Source of the DNA: Terriglobia bacterium
GTDB taxonomy: Bacteria > Acidobacteriota > Terriglobia > JAIQFV01
Assembly (NCBI GenBank): GCA_020072965.1
Contig: JAIQFY010000028.1
Span: 1-62,004 of the forward strand
Direction of reading: 5' to 3'
Length of the DNA stretch: 62,004 nt
Shown here: positions 10,342-16,780 of the stretch, in pieces
Layout: every line of letters starts with the position of its first letter
How positions within the stretch are numbered: the stretch's first letter is position 1
Notes under the pieces: generated by a model
Database searches by the model: none
What the model was told of the DNA's origin: nothing
What the model saw: the letters and a program-made list of their open reading frames with translations, nothing else
Position numbers and translations under genes: made by a program

Positions 10342-11045
10342 TTAGGGATGGTCTGAGGAGAGGGCGAACCTGTTCTTTTCCATTGTGCTACAGGCGCGCG
10401 CTCTTTGCCGGACCAGTTCTGCTTCTTTTTGGGTGAATAGCAGATGCCGGCGCACGGCCAGTTCCCAATCGGACCGGTCCAGCCAACCCTTCATGATGCC
10501 TGAAGGGGAGTGATCGTCATTGGGCAGCAACAAATGCCCGATCTCATGCGCCATGAAATGGCCCAGAACGATGCTCTGTGCCCTGCCGATGTCCAAGTAG
10601 AAGATTCTCGCCACTTGTCCGGAAATTTGCTCGACAGGGTCATAGAAGAGATGGAAATTCCCCCGCTGCCGCCTTCCGCGACTATGCGCGCGGCATATCC
10701 AAATTGTGAGGTTTTTGATGTGAGGCGCAGCTCCCGGGCGTACCGCACCAGATGCAACGCAATTTCGCCGGAGGCGAGCGGCGGGCTGCATGAGTTCGGG
10801 TTTTCGACCTTGCTCTTGGAGCAATCAAGCCATTGAAGTTCTACGCCGGCTCTCTGGAAGATCGCCCCAGTCACCTTCTTTGCATTCTCGAGTATCTCGG
10901 GCTTGATGTTAGCCTTGTCATCGACTCGGATCTGGGGTCGCACAATCTCCGACTGGTTGCGCTCTTGCGACGGGGCAGCCCATGCCGGAAAACCCGTGAA
11001 CAGTAGAAAGCTAAGTGCCATCCCTATATTCGATTGCGTTGCCAT
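10342..11045 (-). pseudogene. Exported metzincin-like protein, copy 1, frameshifted
   Basis: The start (ATG 11045) and signal peptide (ALSFLLFTGFPAWA, cut after AWA) match the two copies downstream. The first frame runs to about GGISIS. The rest of the protein (FYDPVEQISG onward) continues in another frame. Aligned with copies 2 and 3, the change is a two-base gain in a TC run near 10645-10652. The second frame holds the zinc site HEIGHLLLPNDDHS, followed by GIM like a Met-turn. Without repair the product would lose the catalytic motif. A sequencing error at this low-complexity spot is possible. The decay appears recent, since both halves otherwise match the paralogs well. Confidence 0.7.
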
Positions 11046-11102
11046 GGGGCCTCCGGTTCGGCGGATTTGTTTTTTCCGCCCTCGGCCCCTAATGCGGGAA
11101 GG
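11046..11102 (-). promoter_or_regulatory. Conserved leader predicted to mask the SD (copy 1)
   Basis: Read on the minus strand, GGGGCC and an inner GGCGGA are followed by TCCGCC and then GGCCCC directly before the ATG. The two G-C stems nest. The outer stem takes up part of the GGAGG ribosome site. The same block precedes copies 2 and 3 with changes only in loop positions. Confidence 0.55.
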
Positions 11103-11143
11103 TCAGAGAAAAAGGTGAAAATCAGCGGTACATTGAGGAAAGT

Positions 11144-11308
11144 TTTGGTGGCCCCGCTCCGATCCATCGGAGCGGGGGATTTGTGAGCGGGGTGCAGAGA
11201 ACCAAGTTCTTTGGCGCACGGAGGGGAAGAGCCCCCGCCGGCAGAGAGCGCCGGCGAGGCTACCAGAGCCTCGCCATCCCGCTAGGCGGGATGGCGGGGG
11301 CGTTTCGC
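11144..11308. repeat. REP/BIME-like palindromic repeats
   Basis: There are two units. Unit 11144-11185 (ggtggccccgctccg with atcggagcgggg) is a short palindrome. Unit 11225-11308 holds agcccccgccgg, gcgaggctaccag and atggcgggggcgtttcg. The family consensus is a G+C-rich palindrome bordered by GGTAGCC on one side and GGGGGC(T)TTTC on the other. Confidence 0.7.
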
Positions 11309-11396
11309 TGCTGTCGGGATAGAATCAGCGGGTGGGACGAATTTTCGAAAAAACGCCGGCAACAGATCAACCTAGAATCATTGGCAGAGGGTGTGA

Positions 11397-12059
11397 CTAC
11401 CAACTCCTGGCTCGCACTCCTTGCCGAATCATCTCTGCCTGCTCGCGGGTGAATTGCAGATGCCCGCTTACGGCCAGCATCCACTCTCTCTGAAGCAGCC
11501 ACTCCTTCATGATCCCGGAGCGCGAATGATCGCCGTTGGACAGCAACACATGCCCGATCTCATGCGCGATCAGGTGACCCAGGACGATGCTTTGCGCTTT
11601 GTCGATTTTGACGTGGTAAAATGTAATTCCGTGTTCGGCAATCTGCTCGGTTCGCTCAAAGAAAATAGAAATCATACCGTTGCCCCGTTCGGGCGCCGTT
11701 CGAACGGCGTGTCCACCGGTCGAGCTGCCGGATCCGCTGGAGCGCTCCTTCGGGCGTCGAATGATGAGCAGCACGATTTCGTTGAAAGTGAGCGGCTGAC
11801 CACAGACACTCTTGTTCGCAGTGCTACTCTTCGAACAATCCATCCATTCGAGTTCCACTCCTGCCTTCCGGAAGATTTCTCCTGTCACGGCCTTCGCCCC
11901 GTCAAGTGTCCCGGGCTTAATGCCAACCTGGTCGTAGACTAGGATCCGGGGCCGGACAATCTCCGATTTGTTATGCCCTTCCCACGGGGCGGCCCAGGCC
12001 GGAAGGCCTGTGATTAAGAGAAAGCTAAGTGTCGTCCAAACAGTGAATTGCGTTTTCAT
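11397..12059 (-). CDS. Exported metzincin-like metalloprotease, copy 2 (intact)
   Basis: 220 residues from ATG 12059, chosen because it follows GAGAGG and the conserved leader; upstream in-frame codons lie in that leader. The signal peptide is residues ~1-23 (TLSFLLITGLPAWA). The mature part has the zinc-binding HEIGHVLLSNGDHS, two residues longer between the second and third His than the metzincin HExxHxxGxxH, and then SGIM where the family has a Met-turn. Two Cys (MDCSKS and VCGQPL) may form a disulfide outside the cytoplasm. It is one of three tandem paralogs that share about half their residues by eye. It is likely a secreted or periplasmic zinc peptidase; its substrate is unknown. Confidence 0.7.
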   Translation of the reverse strand: MKTQFTVWTTLSFLLITGLPAWAAPWEGHNKSEIVRPRILVYDQVGIKPGTLDGAKAVTGEIFRKAGVELEWMDCSKSSTANKSVCGQPLTFNEIVLLIIRRPKERSSGSGSSTGGHAVRTAPERGNGMISIFFERTEQIAEHGITFYHVKIDKAQSIVLGHLIAHEIGHVLLSNGDHSRSGIMKEWLLQREWMLAVSGHLQFTREQAEMIRQGVRARSW

Positions 12060-12115
12060 GGGGCCTCTCTTTTGGCGGATTAGCTTTTTCCGCCCTCGGC
12101 CCCTAATGCGGGAAG
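12060..12115 (-). promoter_or_regulatory. Conserved leader predicted to mask the SD (copy 2)
   Basis: Same nested stems as copy 1. The inner pair GGCGGA/TCCGCC is at 12074-12079 and 12089-12094. The outer GGGGCC/GGCCCC pair abuts the ATG and the GAGAGG ribosome site. Loop bases differ from the other copies; stem bases do not. Confidence 0.55.
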
Positions 12116-12216
12116 GCATGTGGAAAAGGTGAAAGAGTTCGGAAGTCTTGGCCTGTAGAATTCGGAGGGGCAGTCCCTGGGGACAGTCCAGCAGTGTTTT
12201 TCAACTTCGCATCGAG

Positions 12217-12491
12217 GAAAGCTTTGGTAGCCCCGCCACGGTCTGTGCGGCGTGGCGTTTGTGAGCGGGGCGCAGAGAACCAAGTTCTTCGTCCCGCGAA
12301 GGAAAAAGGCCCCCGCCGGCAAGGAGCGCCCAGCGAGGCTACCAAAGCGTCGCTTTGAGAAACGTTTTGGTAGCCTCGCCACCTTTTTGTGGCGGGGGCA
12401 TTTCGTAATGGTTGGGAACGAATCAGCGGTGGTGGACGAAATCCCGGAAAAGCCCCCGCCGGGCAGAAAGCGCCCGGCGAGGCTACCAAAA
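12217..12491. repeat. Cluster of REP/BIME-like palindromes
   Basis: There are four units: 12217-12262, 12301-12345, 12361-12404 and 12446-12491. The last two face each other across a spacer with gaatcagcggtggtggacga, an arrangement seen again at 13345-13498 and 61752-61875. Each unit combines ggtagccccgcc or its complement with a ggcgggggc arm. Confidence 0.75.
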
Positions 12492-12520
12492 CTTGAGGTC
12501 CGGTGGAGTTGTTGGAGTGG

Positions 12521-13252
12521 TCAGTCCTTCAATCCCATGCGGCTTTGCAGCTCTTGACTGACTGAAGAACGGGTGAAGCTCTCTTTCTCCACGACGCTCC
12601 TCACCTGAACTCCCTGCCGGATCATGTCGGCCTCCTCCCGGGTGAATCCCAAAAGGCCGGATACAGCCAGGGCCCACTCGCGGCGTCCCAGCCGCTCCTG
12701 CATGATGCCTGTAATCGAATGGCCGTCAATGGGAAGCAACAAGTGCCCGATCTCGTGTGTCATGAAATGACCCAGGATGATGCCTTGTGCCCGACCGAGT
12801 TCCAAAGGGGAGTCGCCGATCAACCGCTTGGCAATTTGCTCGATACACTCAGAGGAAATTGAGATCCAGCCGCCGCTCTCTCCGGGGATGATGCGATTGG
12901 CCAGCCCGCATTTGAAATGCCCGGATGGGTTAAGTGACCAGCTGGGGCCCTGGACAATACGCAATCCAATCTCGGGAGGAGTGAGCGGCTGGCCGCAGAC
13001 GCCGTTGAAATCTGGGCTATTCCTCGAGCAGACAATCCACAGAAGTTCGACCCTGACGGCTTTGAAGATGTTGTCGACAATCTTTTCAGCCGATTTGAGT
13101 GTTCTGGGGTCAATGTTAACTTGGTCATACATGCGGATCGTCTGTCGGAAGGCTTTGTACTCGTTTCGGCCTTCAGGATGAACTGGCCATAAGTGAGAAT
13201 TGGCGAACAGGAGAAGGCTAAGTGTCATCCATGCAGTGGATCGCGTTTTCAT
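12521..13252 (-). CDS. Exported metzincin-like metalloprotease, copy 3
   Basis: 243 residues from ATG 13252 with GGAGG four bases before it. The N-terminal hydrophobic segment (MTLSLLLFANSHLW) is a weaker signal peptide than in copies 1 and 2 and lacks a clear AxA site. The zinc site is HEIGHLLLPIDGHS, followed by TGIM. The conserved Cys pair appears as IVCSRN and VCGQPL. The C-terminus is about 20 residues longer than copy 2 (ending RMGLKD). It is the first gene in the minus-strand order of the three. The repeats between copies make separate transcription more likely than one operon. Function as for copy 2. Confidence 0.7.
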   Translation of the reverse strand: MKTRSTAWMTLSLLLFANSHLWPVHPEGRNEYKAFRQTIRMYDQVNIDPRTLKSAEKIVDNIFKAVRVELLWIVCSRNSPDFNGVCGQPLTPPEIGLRIVQGPSWSLNPSGHFKCGLANRIIPGESGGWISISSECIEQIAKRLIGDSPLELGRAQGIILGHFMTHEIGHLLLPIDGHSITGIMQERLGRREWALAVSGLLGFTREEADMIRQGVQVRSVVEKESFTRSSVSQELQSRMGLKD

Positions 13253-13312
13253 GGGGCCTCCGTTTTGGCGGATTTGTTTTTTCCGCCCTCGGCCCCTAAT
13301 GCGGGAAGGTCA
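13253..13312 (-). promoter_or_regulatory. Conserved leader predicted to mask the SD (copy 3)
   Basis: The inner stem GGCGGA/TCCGCC is at 13267-13272 and 13282-13287, the outer GGGGCC/GGCCCC stem meets the ATG, and GGAGG is inside the structure. Upstream, the strings CACCTTTT and CTGACCTTCCCGCATTAGG are also kept in the copies, which may include a promoter. Confidence 0.55.
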
Positions 13313-13344
13313 GTGCAAAAGGTGAAGATCAGCCTTACTTTGAG

Positions 13345-13498
13345 GAACGTTTTGGTAGCCTCCCCGCGGTTTCTTGCGGGGGGGGGCGTTTGGAAGCGGT
13401 CGTGGATGAATTAGCGATGGTGGACGAAATCGCGGAAAAGCCCCCGCTGGGCAAATCCGCCCATAAACATTGGCGGACGGCGTGGCTACCAAAGCTTG
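13345..13498. repeat. BIME-like pair of REP units
   Basis: Unit 13345-13391 (ttggtagcctccccgcgg with a ggggggcgttt arm) and an inverted, longer unit 13434-13498 (aaaagcccccgctgggc and ggcgtggctaccaaagc) flank a spacer with gaattagcgatggtggacga. Same order and spacer type as at 12361-12491. Confidence 0.7.
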
Positions 13499-13584: not shown

Positions 13585-14169
13585 GTGACACGGTCCTCCC
13601 CACAGGAAATTTCTCTCCTACTTCAAGCCTGGCGTGGTGGTGACGAGGCGGCACTGGGCACACTAATGCCTCTGGTGTACGACGAGCTGCATCGGCTGGC
13701 GCATCGCTACATGGTGCACGAGCGAGCAGGACATACGCTGCAAACCACAGCCCTGGTCAATGAAGCCTATCTCCGGCTTGTCGATGCCAACCGGGTGGAT
13801 TGGCAGGACCGGGTCCACTTTTTTGCCATTTGCGCGAACCTGATGCGTCGCATTCTGGTCGACTTCGCACGTTCGCGCGGATACCAGAAGCGGGGCGGCA
13901 ATGTGAAGAAGGTATCACTCGAAGAGTCCGTGCTGGTCTCGCCCGAGCCGGGTGTCGATCTTGTGAAACTTAATGACGCGCTGAATACCCTGACGGGATT
14001 CGACCCCAGAAAAGCGAAAGTCGTGGAGTTACGTTTTTTCGGGGGCTTGAGTGAGGAAGAAGCTGCGGAGGTGCTGAAGGTCTCGCGCGACACGGTGAAG
14101 CGCGACTGGAGGTTAGCCAAGGTTTGGCTGCTGGAGGAACTGAGCGATGAAGGTCGAGATGAAGCCTGA
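13585..14169 (+). CDS. ECF-type sigma factor of the kinase-linked class
   Basis: 194 residues from GTG 13585, chosen because AAAGGAGG sits four bases upstream; the ATG-like frame further up lies outside the homologous part. Region 2 is ELHRLAHRYM plus GHTLQTTALVNEAYLRL. Region 4 is ELRFFGGLSEEEAAEVL and VSRDTVKRDWRLAKVWL. Both are typical of the large ECF group found in Acidobacteria and Planctomycetes next to Ser/Thr kinases. It overlaps the kinase start by 23 bases, so translation is coupled. It probably directs RNA polymerase to a regulon controlled by that kinase; I see no anti-sigma gene. Confidence 0.88.
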   Translation: MTRSSPQEISLLLQAWRGGDEAALGTLMPLVYDELHRLAHRYMVHERAGHTLQTTALVNEAYLRLVDANRVDWQDRVHFFAICANLMRRILVDFARSRGYQKRGGNVKKVSLEESVLVSPEPGVDLVKLNDALNTLTGFDPRKAKVVELRFFGGLSEEEAAEVLKVSRDTVKRDWRLAKVWLLEELSDEGRDEA

Positions 14170-16780
14170 ACGCTGGCAGCAGATCGAACATCTCTACAAC
14201 TCGGTCGTTGAGCTTGAGCCGAGTGAGCGAGGCGCCTACCTCAAGGGAGCCTGTGCCGGCGATGAGTCCCTTCAGAGGGAAGTGGAACGCCTGCTCGCGC
14301 ACCAGCCGCAAGCCGAAGGCTTCATCGAATCCCCCGCGTTGGAGGTGGCGGCCAGGGACTTGGCAATGGACCCAAATGGTGAGCAGGATCTTGACTTAAC
14401 CGGCCGGTCCTTGTCGCACTACCGCGTCAACGAGAAAATCGGGGAAGGAGGGATGGGCAAGGTCTATCGTGCCTTTGATGATCACCTCCAGCGCGACATC
14501 GCTATCAAGCTACTGCCCTCCGGAGCGCTGGCCGACGAGACTGCCCGCAAACGTTTCCGCAAAGAAGCCCTGGCTCTCTCCAAGCTCAACCATCCCAACA
14601 TCGCCACCGTTCACGACTTCGACACGCAGCAAGGACTGGACTTTCTGGTGATGGAGTACATCCCGGGTGTGACACTCAGCGAAAAGTTGGCCGCCGGCCA
14701 TCTGTCCGAAAAGGAGGTTGCCGGTCTGGGAGTCCAGCTGGCTGCGGGCCTGGAGGCCGCGCACCAGGAGGGGGTTCTCCACCGGGATCTCAAGCCGGCC
14801 AATATACGACTCACCCCGGATGGCCGATTAAAGATTCTCGACTTCGGATTGGCAAAGCTGATTCGAATGGACACGCCAGACAAGTCAACTGAAAGCGTCG
14901 TCCAGACGCATGGCGTGGCGGGGACCCTGCCTTACATGGCCCCGGAACAGTTGCAGGCAGAACCCCTGGATGCCCGCACGGACATCTTCTCTGCCGGCAC
15001 TGTGCTTTACGAGATGACGACCGGAAAGAGGGCATTTCAAGAGACCCTCACTCCGCGGCTCATTGACGCCATTTTGCACCAGGCCCCCCCACTGCCCTCA
15101 GTCCTCAATCACCGCGTTTCGCCGGGGTTGGAGGGAGTCATCCTGAAGTGTCTGGAGAAAGATCCGGACAACCGCTATCAGTCGGCGAAGGAACTTGGTG
15201 TGGATCTGCGCCGACTTTTGTCTCCCGGGTCCTCCCTCCAACAAGCATCTCCACGAAAACTGAGCACCAGGAAGAAAGTGGGATTGGGTGTGATTTTATG
15301 TGGATTCCTCCTCCTGGCATTGGGGCTGGGTTTTAACTTGGCAGGCCTGCGTCAGCGATTGTTGGGAGGAACGGGGCGTCAGACCATCCACTCGCTGGCC
15401 GTGCTCCCCCTGGTGAACCTTTCCGGGGATCCTGGACAGGAATATTTTGCCGATGGAATGACCGATGAAATCATCACCGCGCTGTGGAAGATCGGCGCGT
15501 TGCGGGTCACCGCGCGTACTTCCGTCATGCAGTACAAGGAATCGAAGGCGACATTGTCCGAGATTGCTCGGAATCTCAAAATCGACGCGGTCATCGAGGG
15601 CGCGGTGTTGCGCGAGGGGAACCAGGTTCGGATTACAGCGCGGTTGATGGGTGTGGCCCCGGAGCGCCCACTTTGGGCCAGAGACTTCGTGCGCGACACG
15701 ACAAACATTCTGGCTCTACAGAGTGAAGTGGCGCAGGCGATTGTGCAAGAGGTCAGGGCCACCATCACTCCGCAGGAACAGCTCCGGCTGGCGGCAACCC
15801 ACAAGGTGGACCCGATTGCGTACGACTTATACCTCCAGGGGCGCTTCTGGTGGAACAAACGCAATGAAGAGGCGATGTTAAAGGCGAGGGACTACTTCCA
15901 GCAATCGATTGACAAAGACCCCACCTACGCCTCTGCCTGGGCCGGACTGGCGGATGCAATCAGCCTGCTCAGGGATGTGGGGTATTGGGAGATAAAGCCC
16001 GAAGAAATCCGAGCGCAGGCCCTGAAAGCTGCCTTGAAGGCGGTGGAATTGGATGACAACCTGGCGGAAGGTCATGTAGCGCTTGCCAGGGTCTACATGC
16101 TTCAAAGAAAGTGGGCCGCTGCCGAGAAGGAGTTCCAGCAGGCCATCCGATTGAATCCCAACTATCCGACTGCGCACCAATGGTACGCGTATCTCTTGCT
16201 CAGTTTGGGCCGACAAGAAGAAGGCCTCTCCGAGATCAGGAAGGCAGAGCTGGTGGATCCCAAGTCCATGGTCATCCGCACAAACGTTGCAAATCACCTC
16301 TGGTGCCTCCACCGAGGAGATGAAGCTGTCGTGTTGCTGCAGCAAGGAATTGAAATCGATCCCCAGTTTGTCAACACGCACGCACTTCTGAAGATAATTT
16401 ACGAGGAAAGGGGAATGTTCCCCGAAGCGATCCAGGAATTCGAAAAACTCTATCTCCTTATTATGCCCAGGGAGCCGGAGCGGGTGCAGACCATGGCAAC
16501 CGGATTTCGCGAAGCCTACAAAGCGGAAGGGGCACGGGGCTACCGGTTGAGATCCTTGGAACTGGCCAACCAGGAGTATCAAGCGGGATCTGCGCCAGCA
16601 ATCCAAGTCGCCGCCAATTATGCCCAAATAGGCGACGTGGATCACGCATTGCAATGGCTGATGAAGGGCTGTCGCGACTGGGAAGATGTCCCCATTATGC
16701 TGCGTTGGCCCGAGATGAACAAGGTGCGTGCGGACGCGCACTTCCGCGAGGTCCTTGATTGCCTGGGGCTCGAGCATTAA
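14147..16780 (+). CDS. Membrane Ser/Thr protein kinase with TolB-like and TPR sensor domains
   Basis: 877 residues in this order. Residues 1-75 are an N-terminal module (RWQQIEHLY, ACAGDESLQREVERLLA, GFIESPA). Residues 93-350 are a Hanks-type kinase with glycine loop GEGGMGKVY (99-107), Lys121, HRDLKPAN (212-219) and DFG (232-234). Residues ~377-399 are one membrane helix. Residues ~415-560 are a TolB-like domain (LAVLPLVNLSGDPGQEYFADG). TPR repeats run from ~570 to the end. All catalytic residues are present. The kinase half should be cytoplasmic and the TolB/TPR half outside. Overlap with the sigma factor gene indicates they work as a pair, with phosphorylation likely switching sigma activity. 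The N-terminal module recurs in the other sigma-linked kinase (44753-46096) but not in the two kinases without a sigma gene. Confidence 0.9.
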   Translation: MKVEMKPERWQQIEHLYNSVVELEPSERGAYLKGACAGDESLQREVERLLAHQPQAEGFIESPALEVAARDLAMDPNGEQDLDLTGRSLSHYRVNEKIGEGGMGKVYRAFDDHLQRDIAIKLLPSGALADETARKRFRKEALALSKLNHPNIATVHDFDTQQGLDFLVMEYIPGVTLSEKLAAGHLSEKEVAGLGVQLAAGLEAAHQEGVLHRDLKPANIRLTPDGRLKILDFGLAKLIRMDTPDKSTESVVQTHGVAGTLPYMAPEQLQAEPLDARTDIFSAGTVLYEMTTGKRAFQETLTPRLIDAILHQAPPLPSVLNHRVSPGLEGVILKCLEKDPDNRYQSAKELGVDLRRLLSPGSSLQQASPRKLSTRKKVGLGVILCGFLLLALGLGFNLAGLRQRLLGGTGRQTIHSLAVLPLVNLSGDPGQEYFADGMTDEIITALWKIGALRVTARTSVMQYKESKATLSEIARNLKIDAVIEGAVLREGNQVRITARLMGVAPERPLWARDFVRDTTNILALQSEVAQAIVQEVRATITPQEQLRLAATHKVDPIAYDLYLQGRFWWNKRNEEAMLKARDYFQQSIDKDPTYASAWAGLADAISLLRDVGYWEIKPEEIRAQALKAALKAVELDDNLAEGHVALARVYMLQRKWAAAEKEFQQAIRLNPNYPTAHQWYAYLLLSLGRQEEGLSEIRKAELVDPKSMVIRTNVANHLWCLHRGDEAVVLLQQGIEIDPQFVNTHALLKIIYEERGMFPEAIQEFEKLYLLIMPREPERVQTMATGFREAYKAEGARGYRLRSLELANQEYQAGSAPAIQVAANYAQIGDVDHALQWLMKGCRDWEDVPIMLRWPEMNKVRADAHFREVLDCLGLEH

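Follow-up and report, generated by a model that had tools for sequence, protein, structure and literature searches.

A candidate translation-restraining leader hairpin before exported HEXXH protein genes in Terriglobia

The tandem HEXXH genes and their leaders

The window, by which we mean the whole 62,004-nt stretch analysed (contig JAIQFY010000028.1 of a Terriglobia bacterium), contains three tandem genes of one protein family, arranged divergently from a gene pair for an ECF sigma factor and a Ser/Thr kinase (Table 1). The sigma factor scored 218 bits, compared with a curated TIGR02999 cut-off of 126. The broken frame of copy 3 represents either a pseudogene or a sequencing error.

Table 1. 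Coordinates of genes, leader hairpins, promoter-like motifs and Shine-Dalgarno (SD) sequences at the tandem locus
Feature	Position	Strand	Basis or remark
Copy 1, exported HEXXH protein, 243 aa	12521..13252	-	signal peptide by eye
Copy 2, exported HEXXH protein, 220 aa	11397..12059	-	signal peptide by eye
Copy 3, same family as copies 1 and 2	10342..11045	-	frame broken near 10647-10674
ECF sigma factor, divergent, TIGR02999 / PF07638	13543..14169	+	profile
Ser/Thr kinase with TPR repeats, after the sigma factor gene	14147..16780	+	
Copy 1 leader hairpin	13253..13296	-	sequence, fold, nested stems in 2/3000 shuffles
Copy 2 leader hairpin	12060..12103	-	sequence, fold, nested stems in 9/3000 shuffles
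Copy 3 leader hairpin	11046..11089	-	sequence, fold, nested stems in 7/3000 shuffles
Promoter-like motif CTTTT-N9-TTCCCGCATT, copy 1	13298..13321	-	common to ECF-sigma-type loci of other species
Promoter-like motif CTTTT-N9-TTCCCGCATT, copy 2	12105..12128	-	
Promoter-like motif CTTTT-N9-TTCCCGCATT, copy 3	11091..11114	-	
SD GGAGG, copy 1	13257..13261	-	only last GG paired in outer stem
SD GAGG, copy 2	12064..12067	-	weaker SD
SD GGAGG, copy 3	11050..11054	-	only last GG paired in outer stem

Signal peptides, recognised by eye, together with the HEXXH motif agree with the original prediction that exported proteases are encoded here. Their description as metzincin-like held only in part. In a 13-member alignment of the family, HEXXH is invariant and followed by a GIM turn. 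The metzincin zinc motif is HEXXHXXGXXH/D, and this textbook form was not found in the family alignment; for instance, P0001 has seven residues, not five, between the second and third histidines. Searches of Pfam and NCBIfam gave no family at or above its cut-off, the best PDB sequence matches (karilysin and fragilysin) were weak (E 0.8-1), and an AlphaFold model built from two sequences was poor, with a mean pLDDT of 47.

The nested-stem leader predicted before all three genes was confirmed both in the letters and by folding, which returned the nested stems in 3/3 window leaders. On the minus strand, each leader reads GGGGCC-GAG-GGCGGA-(9 nt)-TCCGCC-(8 nt)-GGCCCC-ATG, that is, 44 nt with nested stems of 6+6 bp. 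The inner stem (GGCGGA/TCCGCC) carries a 9-nt apical loop, and the outer stem (GGGGCC/GGCCCC) ends at position -1 relative to the ATG. As had been proposed, the outer stem includes part of the SD: 2/5 bases of the core are paired (40%; the GG of GGAGG), and GGA lies in the internal loop. Equally in line with the prediction, copy-to-copy changes are confined to loops and the stems are invariant. The 44-nt leaders differ pairwise at 2, 4 and 6 positions, none of them in a stem, and these fall in the apical loop (-25, -23) or on the 3' strand of the internal loop (-14, -11, -10, -9).

The shuffle counts in Table 1 come from 3000 trials per copy, in which the upstream part was shuffled and the last 9 nt were kept fixed. 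The pattern GGCGGA-N{5,30}-TCCGCC was observed four times in the window, three of these being the leaders, compared with 0.38 expected. The free-energy z-scores of the short leaders, by contrast, were unremarkable (-1.85, -1.76 and -0.88 for copies 1, 2 and 3). Extended to 72 nt, the leaders are identical pairwise at 61-68 positions (85-94%), and the three proteins are 35-50% identical. Since the stems are invariant in the window, the evidence must come from homologs. A regulon within the same genome was considered and rejected, as the leader DNA there is represented by the three copies only, the other 14 matches having E above 1.

Homologous leaders across the class

The protein family is present in 77 of the 399 genomes of the class. 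Its 96 ORFs yielded 90 rows and finally 88 distinct leaders, after removal of matches without the N-terminal part of the domain, of L097 (no start) and of L090, which repeats L055. Starts were chosen by SD, blind to the hairpin and by the same rule for family and neighbouring genes; this choice is wrong for L068 and L040, where the true start is probably a TTG after the hairpin, and the counts were kept unchanged. A stem score of at least 20 was reached by 34/88 family leaders, compared with 8/212 neighbouring genes (p=7e-14). Similarly, hairpin energies were -16.8 kcal/mol in the family and -11.8 kcal/mol in the neighbours, and 8-pair stems abutting the start were present in 22/88 and 3/212, respectively. 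Owing to high GC, family leaders shuffled upstream of -14 scored at least 20 in 180/1760 cases, with a mean hairpin energy of -14.0.

The letters of these hairpins vary, as 18 different 5' arms were counted among 27 start-abutting stems. The covariation score was matched in 0/500 shuffles for the alignment not fitted to structure and in 1/500 for the structure-fitted one, and the count of pairs changed on both sides was equalled in 23/500 shuffles (unfitted alignment). Uncompensated stem changes in homologous leaders had been named as evidence that would speak against the prediction, and they are present to some extent: nine consensus pairs are formed in 80-82% of alignment cells, and 54/88 family leaders score below 20 (42/88 below 18). 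Among 33 further leaders, taken from a second collection, 12 scored at least 18, compared with 20/212 controls (p=2e-4), the controls being the neighbour genes of the first set. The two other genomes covered from the family and order of the source contained no homolog, and a first contig scan with two query sequences gave no match.

A covariance model also picked up the leader in front of genes for aspartyl proteases and for divergent HEXXH proteins. Of the 12 matches that model R2 gave in the class beyond its training rows, 8 lie ahead of protease-like genes, namely 1 family gene, 4 aspartyl proteases and 3 divergent HEXXH proteins, 2 of the latter with interrupted frames. Two aspartyl-protease paralogs of one genome have the stem arms GTCGTCCT and GTCGCTCT, each with a matching partner arm. 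In a phylum sample, R2 matched in 2/396 genomes, both from the same class as the source. In the source genome itself, R2 gave no match at 0.001, and R1 gave five matches, all with E of 1.9 or more. Neither model recognised the window leader, which is therefore counted as a member by its gene, position and shape.

Other readings of the leader were tried and rejected. An extension of the coding region was discarded because a TGA closes the leader frame in copies 1 and 3 and is followed by no ATG, GTG or TTG; an upstream ATG occurs in copy 2 only. A uORF at TTGAGGTA closes at once in several leaders (TTG AGG TAG), and no conserved uORF was seen by eye. A DNA operator fits poorly, as the two dyads do not share a centre (3 and 8 nt separate the arms) and the hairpin length varies among homologs from 23 to about 60 nt.

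Divergent regulators and the upstream element

Neighbouring genes were typed by profile, regex typing having proved too strict. A divergent winged-helix ORF lies upstream of 55/88 family genes, 54 of them within 400 nt; the window has the upstream divergent ECF sigma factor and kinase in its place. Regulators of the CadC/ToxR type are winged-helix proteins encoded beside their target gene. The present ones resemble them in being long proteins with an N-terminal Trans_reg_C-type domain, encoded next to the target, and differ in that the linked targets are exported proteases with a structured leader.

The hairpin was compared between these genes and other targets of the same regulator type, for which 28 loci minus L179 (no start) and L171 (itself HEXXH) left 26 picks. 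Scores of at least 20 were found in 25/57 winged-helix-linked family leaders and in 0/26 other picks, of which L133, L160, L165, L166, L169, L170 and L185 seem to be wrong ORFs. About 17/27 of the other winged-helix targets look exported by eye. With few exceptions these targets are without the hairpin, which suggests that it tracks proteases.

In winged-helix-type leaders, a conserved CAUUGAGGUA stretch lies 21-24 nt upstream of the hairpin (manual count). At least 7/8 letters of CATTGAGG were found in 31/57 winged-helix-type, 0/9 ECF-type and 1/22 other leaders. The conserved part of the leader consists of a short stretch and one hairpin.

A proposed translational restraint and its alternatives

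On balance, we lean towards reading the leader as a hairpin that restrains translation, mainly with exported proteases, below a transcriptional layer of control. We infer that the stem arises in vivo, that it reduces translation and that some signal opens it. The 3' arm of the mRNA stem would reach the base before the start codon and cover part or all of the SD, so that 30S loading would be slow unless the stem were opened or by-passed. The transcriptional layer above would come from the regulator that is often encoded divergently from the protease gene; where one is seen, this is mostly a winged-helix protein, and in the window it is the ECF sigma factor with its Ser/Thr kinase. Two such locks would hold a potentially harmful secreted protease off until needed. 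As the opener, we think that a trans-acting factor, or ribosome loading on CAUUGAGGUA, is more likely than heat. The chief reservation for the window is that the promoter-like motif stops, with TTCCCGCATT, one base short of the outer 5' arm, which the transcript could therefore be without; in addition, only 2/5 bases of the SD are paired there.

The window leader could instead be mainly the region where the divergent ECF sigma factor binds and transcription initiates, retained in every copy for its transcription; the GGGGCC arm would then lie at the transcription start or upstream of it, and the outer stem would not form at all. We consider this unlikely, and it is the promoter-like motif that speaks for it. 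The original reading had overlooked this hairpin-abutting motif, along with the adjoining regulatory gene pair. The form (G/C)TTTT-N9-TTCCCGC(A/C)TT is common to the window and the ECF-type loci L035, L038, L044, L072 and L092 (N7 in L092), and a search on both strands of loci totalling 946,504 nt gave 12 occurrences of TTCCCGC(A/C)TT, 8 of which sit 30-56 nt before family genes. Conservation in the window reaches upstream of the hairpin. In L035, L038, L044 and L092, moreover, only 20-26 nt separate the motif from the ATG, which is too short for such a hairpin downstream of it. Against a purely promoter role, the three copies keep the 44 nt after the motif just as well, with perfect nesting, and the ECF-type L072 has an analogous nested stem pair in different letters. 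The motif is also missing from the ECF-type L107, and from L091, L095, L096 and L103 if the BLAST cluster is counted. In winged-helix-type leaders, the 21-24 nt gap after CATTGAGG places the hairpin probably whole in the mRNA.

It appears improbable that the leaders are alike through recent gene conversion or duplication and that the hairpin is a by-product of GC-rich sequence. The three copies do stand in tandem and repeats are shared between them, and GC-rich family leaders yield chance stems at the shuffled frequency given above. However, fourfold sites in the coding sequence downstream are only 41-56% identical, which would require a conversion tract to stop near the leader in every copy, and homologs elsewhere carry the hairpin in different letters. 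In RNA thermometers such as ROSE and fourU, a hairpin at the start codon pairs the SD, and the window leader, whose SD is partly paired in a start-adjacent hairpin before exported proteases, is alike in this respect; warming would then melt the stem and free the SD. We regard this as very improbable, since predicted SD pairing varied by at most 0.06 from 15 to 65 C in ten leader versions with the hairpin intact, with no loss over the physiological range in silico, and fell with temperature only in a window version shortened to remove the outer arm. The stems are also GC-rich, and neither the window nor 20 homologous loci gave an Rfam match at the gathering threshold; these loci and the window likewise contained no aptamer-like core or described class that would indicate a riboswitch. 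The RNA switch originally proposed is half borne out: a start-blocking structure is supported, since many homologous leaders of the class place the SD in a start-adjacent hairpin whose stem changes are compensated, and a heat-operated form finds no support in silico.

Extending the translational restraint beyond the window, we tentatively raise the possibility of a new class of cis-acting RNA leader set by target function. In Acidobacteria, non-homologous exported proteases (HEXXH and aspartyl) would all carry this start-blocking hairpin, preceded by a common CATTGAGGTA that would serve for ribosome standby or for binding a factor. Together with a divergently encoded winged-helix regulator or sigma factor-kinase pair, each would make up a module with two locks. 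According to the sections of PMC7708055 considered here, the tisB mRNA of E. coli has a sequestered RBS and a standby site 100 nt upstream, which needs a 5' pseudoknot. The present leaders would resemble it in their predicted hidden RBS, in a product potentially harmful in excess and in a possible single-stranded ribosome site upstream; they differ in that the putative SD-like GAGGUA lies 21-24 nt before the hairpin and occurs in 0/9 ECF-type leaders. Genes of ECF43-type sigma factors adjoin Ser/Thr kinase genes (PMC8103513), as in the window, a likeness of gene arrangement; the sections of that source considered here make no mention of a protease target or hairpin leader. Acido-1 and Acido-Lenti-1 (RF01686, RF01687) are likewise structured RNA candidates of Acidobacteria, listed as not cis-regulatory in the part of PMC2864571 considered here, and the window and the 20 loci matched neither. 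Among the open-licence titles and abstract openings listed, none described such a leader.

Leaders that hide the SD are already known, and what stands out here is their sharing among unrelated exported proteases. This sharing, together with the scarcity of the hairpin before the other exported genes that adjoin this type of regulator, suggests an extra translational lock on proteases, which offers a handle on the control of secreted proteolysis in abundant, mostly uncultured soil bacteria. The covariance model and the gene arrangement can be searched by others. The leader-like matches extend beyond proteases: in L154, L130/L159 and L133 they precede or lie close to genes of small exported proteins outside the recognised proteases.

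Nested stems ahead of three tandem genes

The three tandem minus-strand genes (copies 1 to 3) share the layout GGGGCC-GAG-GGCGGA-(9 nt)-TCCGCC-(8 nt)-GGCCCC directly before each ATG, and folding predicts two nested 6-bp stems in 3/3 leaders, bearing out the original prediction. The original observation that copies differ in loops alone also held, as the pairwise differences within the 44-nt leader number 2, 4, and 6, none of them in a stem. Shuffles that kept the last 9 nt produced the nested 6+6 stems in 2, 9, and 7 per 3000 trials (copies 1, 2, and 3), and the folding energies are ordinary for the composition (z of -0.88, -1.76, and -1.85 for copies 3, 2, and 1).

Genes with the hairpin leader in the window
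Feature	Positions	Strand	Remark
Copy 1, exported HEXXH protein gene	12521-13252	minus	
Copy 2, exported HEXXH protein gene	11397-12059	minus	
Copy 3, exported HEXXH protein gene	10342-11045	minus	frame broken near 10647-10674

The leaders are better conserved than the genes behind them: 72-nt leaders differ pairwise at 4, 8, and 11 positions, while identity is 35-50% for the proteins and 41-56% at fourfold sites, with copy 3 compared only as far as its frame break. Because the stems are invariant, selection on pairing cannot be demonstrated from the window alone. A search with the leader DNA returned no further place at E below 1 in its own 5.9-Mb genome. Aligned with the other two, copy 3 shows two extra bases that split the frame and the HEXXH motif, its leader being intact. 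REP-like palindromic repeats around TTTTGGTAGCCTCGCC occupy the intergenic DNA that separates and flanks the three genes (11253-13494); of 8 copies in the window, counted with up to 2 mismatches against 0.04 expected, 7 lie inside this interval.

Stem statistics and covariation in homologous leaders

The protein family was matched in 77 of 399 Terriglobia genomes (E up to 1e-5) and had no match in the two other genomes examined from the window's order; the family proteins tried against Pfam and NCBIfam reached no curated family at cut-off. Homologous loci yielded 96 family ORFs, which gave 88 distinct leaders. Their starts were picked on Shine-Dalgarno (SD) strength and on the start codon without regard to structure, and helices that end at -1 or -2 were given a stem score. 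A score of at least 20 was found in 34/88 family leaders versus 8/212 neighbouring genes given the same treatment (Fisher 7e-14), and in 180/1760 family leaders shuffled upstream of -14. With an SD of at least 5 nt, a score of at least 18 occurred in 38/66 family leaders versus 6/95 neighbours. Stems of eight pairs abutting the start, with no more than a single bulge and a single G-U permitted, were present in 22/88 family leaders versus 3/212 controls; together with those of 5/10 further leaders, they use 18 different 5' arms. Mean hairpin energies were -16.8 for the family, -11.8 for controls, and -14.0 for shuffles; an earlier, looser hairpin measure separated the sets less well (72/88 versus 114/212, shuffles 588/880). 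Elsewhere, too, tandem or paralogous family genes each carry a leader (L055 343-2166, L054, and L071); in the last two the hairpin is long, about 60 nt, and built in two storeys.

A second collection provided at least 66 loci, 64 of them labelled Acidobacteria or a subgroup, and 33 new leaders among the matches listed. Twelve of these 33 reached score 18, versus 20/212 first-set controls (p=2e-4), seven reached score 20, and 19 had an opposite-strand winged-helix ORF.

Row selection in the covariation alignments favours structure, and the whole-set stem counts are independent of it. When 26 leaders chosen for a compact hairpin were aligned with plain MAFFT, a nine-pair helix formed in 82% of cells and its covariation score, well over all slid registers, was matched by 0/500 shuffles; the five both-sided pair changes were equalled by 23/500. 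The model-fitted alignment of 33 leaders showed both-sided changes in 7/9 pairs (2/500 shuffles).

Genes behind the leader and their divergent regulators

The covariance model R2 gave 42 matches in 30/399 class genomes (E up to 0.001), comprising 30 training rows and 12 others. Across 396 genomes sampled from the phylum it matched in only two, both of the same class, and the second collection gave 18 matches (E up to 0.01), several apparently already present in the class set. Among the 12 non-training matches, four stand before aspartyl proteases (Pfam searches with two of these gave PF13650 over cut-off each time, and the remaining two are alike by eye), three precede divergent HEXXH proteins (frames interrupted in L149 and L150), one is an additional family gene, and one lies about 985 nt upstream of a family fragment; two stand beside a winged-helix gene, at L154 (small exported protein) and L152 (ambiguous ORF), and the last looks like chance. 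Small exported proteins also follow the leader in training row L130, after a short ORF, and at L133, a weaker match (27.8 bits with model R1, 30.1 with R2) whose protein has no Pfam family; the leader is therefore not strictly confined to proteases. L149 and L150 (from 1564), which belong to two species of one genus, have the same leader, and a one-base difference past the start codon shifts the frame in one; the L150 frame stops ahead of the HEXXH stretch. Training row L131 has no family gene behind its leader (1501-1578, minus), whose start codon and stem-foot base pairs are altered in a way that suggests decay once the gene was lost.

In 73/88 family genes the closest ORF upstream is divergent, a few such ORFs being spurious. 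A winged-helix regulator ORF is present at 57/88 loci and at 4/4 aspartyl-protease loci; it lies upstream on the opposite strand in 55/88 family genes, in 54 cases no more than 400 nt away. Trans_reg_C domains are too few for chance proximity, with only 5, 21, 16, and 12 in four genomes that measure about 6 Mb each. Whether the hairpin accompanies the regulator or the protease was compared at 28 other winged-helix loci from these four genomes (26 usable picks): 0/26 reached score 20 (one at 18) versus 25/57 linked family leaders (p=1e-5). About 7 of the 26 seem to be misidentified ORFs, and L133's true target belongs to the small-exported-protein exceptions. The only strong hairpin there (L171, score 31) precedes a HEXXH protein. 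Genes for various sorts of exported protein often lie divergent from a winged-helix regulator across L160-L186, a layout that appears to be general in these genomes.

An ECF sigma ORF was recognized by motif at L035, L038, L044, L072, L092, and L107, by profile in the window, and by BLAST cluster at L091, L095, L096, and L103. Upstream motifs differ by regulator type: CATTGAGG occurs in 31/57 winged-helix-type leaders, 0/9 ECF-type, and 1/22 others. TTCCCGC(A/C)TT, mostly 9 nt past (G/C)TTTT, is present at L035, L038, L044, L072, and L092 as well as in the window (variant in L039), and not in L107, L091, L095, L096, or L103. This second motif occurs 12 times in 946,504 nt, and 8 of these places precede family genes, so the conserved block is probably promoter in its upstream half.

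Proposed mechanism and novelty

Start-blocking hairpins are an already known kind; the new part is a hairpin common to unrelated exported proteases and its pairing with divergent regulators. Rfam returned no family at gathering threshold for the window or for 20 homologous loci (sub-threshold matches were weak and outside the hairpins), and we found no account of such a leader in the open-licence literature.

In winged-helix-type leaders, the 30S subunit could hardly reach the SD unless the stem opens; predicted pairing shifts by at most 0.06 across 15-65 C in silico. In the window, the outer stem covers part of the SD, as originally noted, pairing only the GG of GGAGG, and the promoter-like motif stops one base ahead of GGGGCC. 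Transcription starting at AGGGGCC would make the hairpin the extreme 5' end; a start well past the motif would remove the outer stem. In ECF-type L072 the outer 7-bp and inner 6-bp stems around a 9-nt loop use different letters, which speaks for structure, but the 5' arm there overlaps the promoter-like motif; four further ECF-type relatives have no space for such a hairpin. The partial SD pairing, the motif position, and these relatives thus leave a moderate case for the hairpin in the window and a strong one for the winged-helix type.
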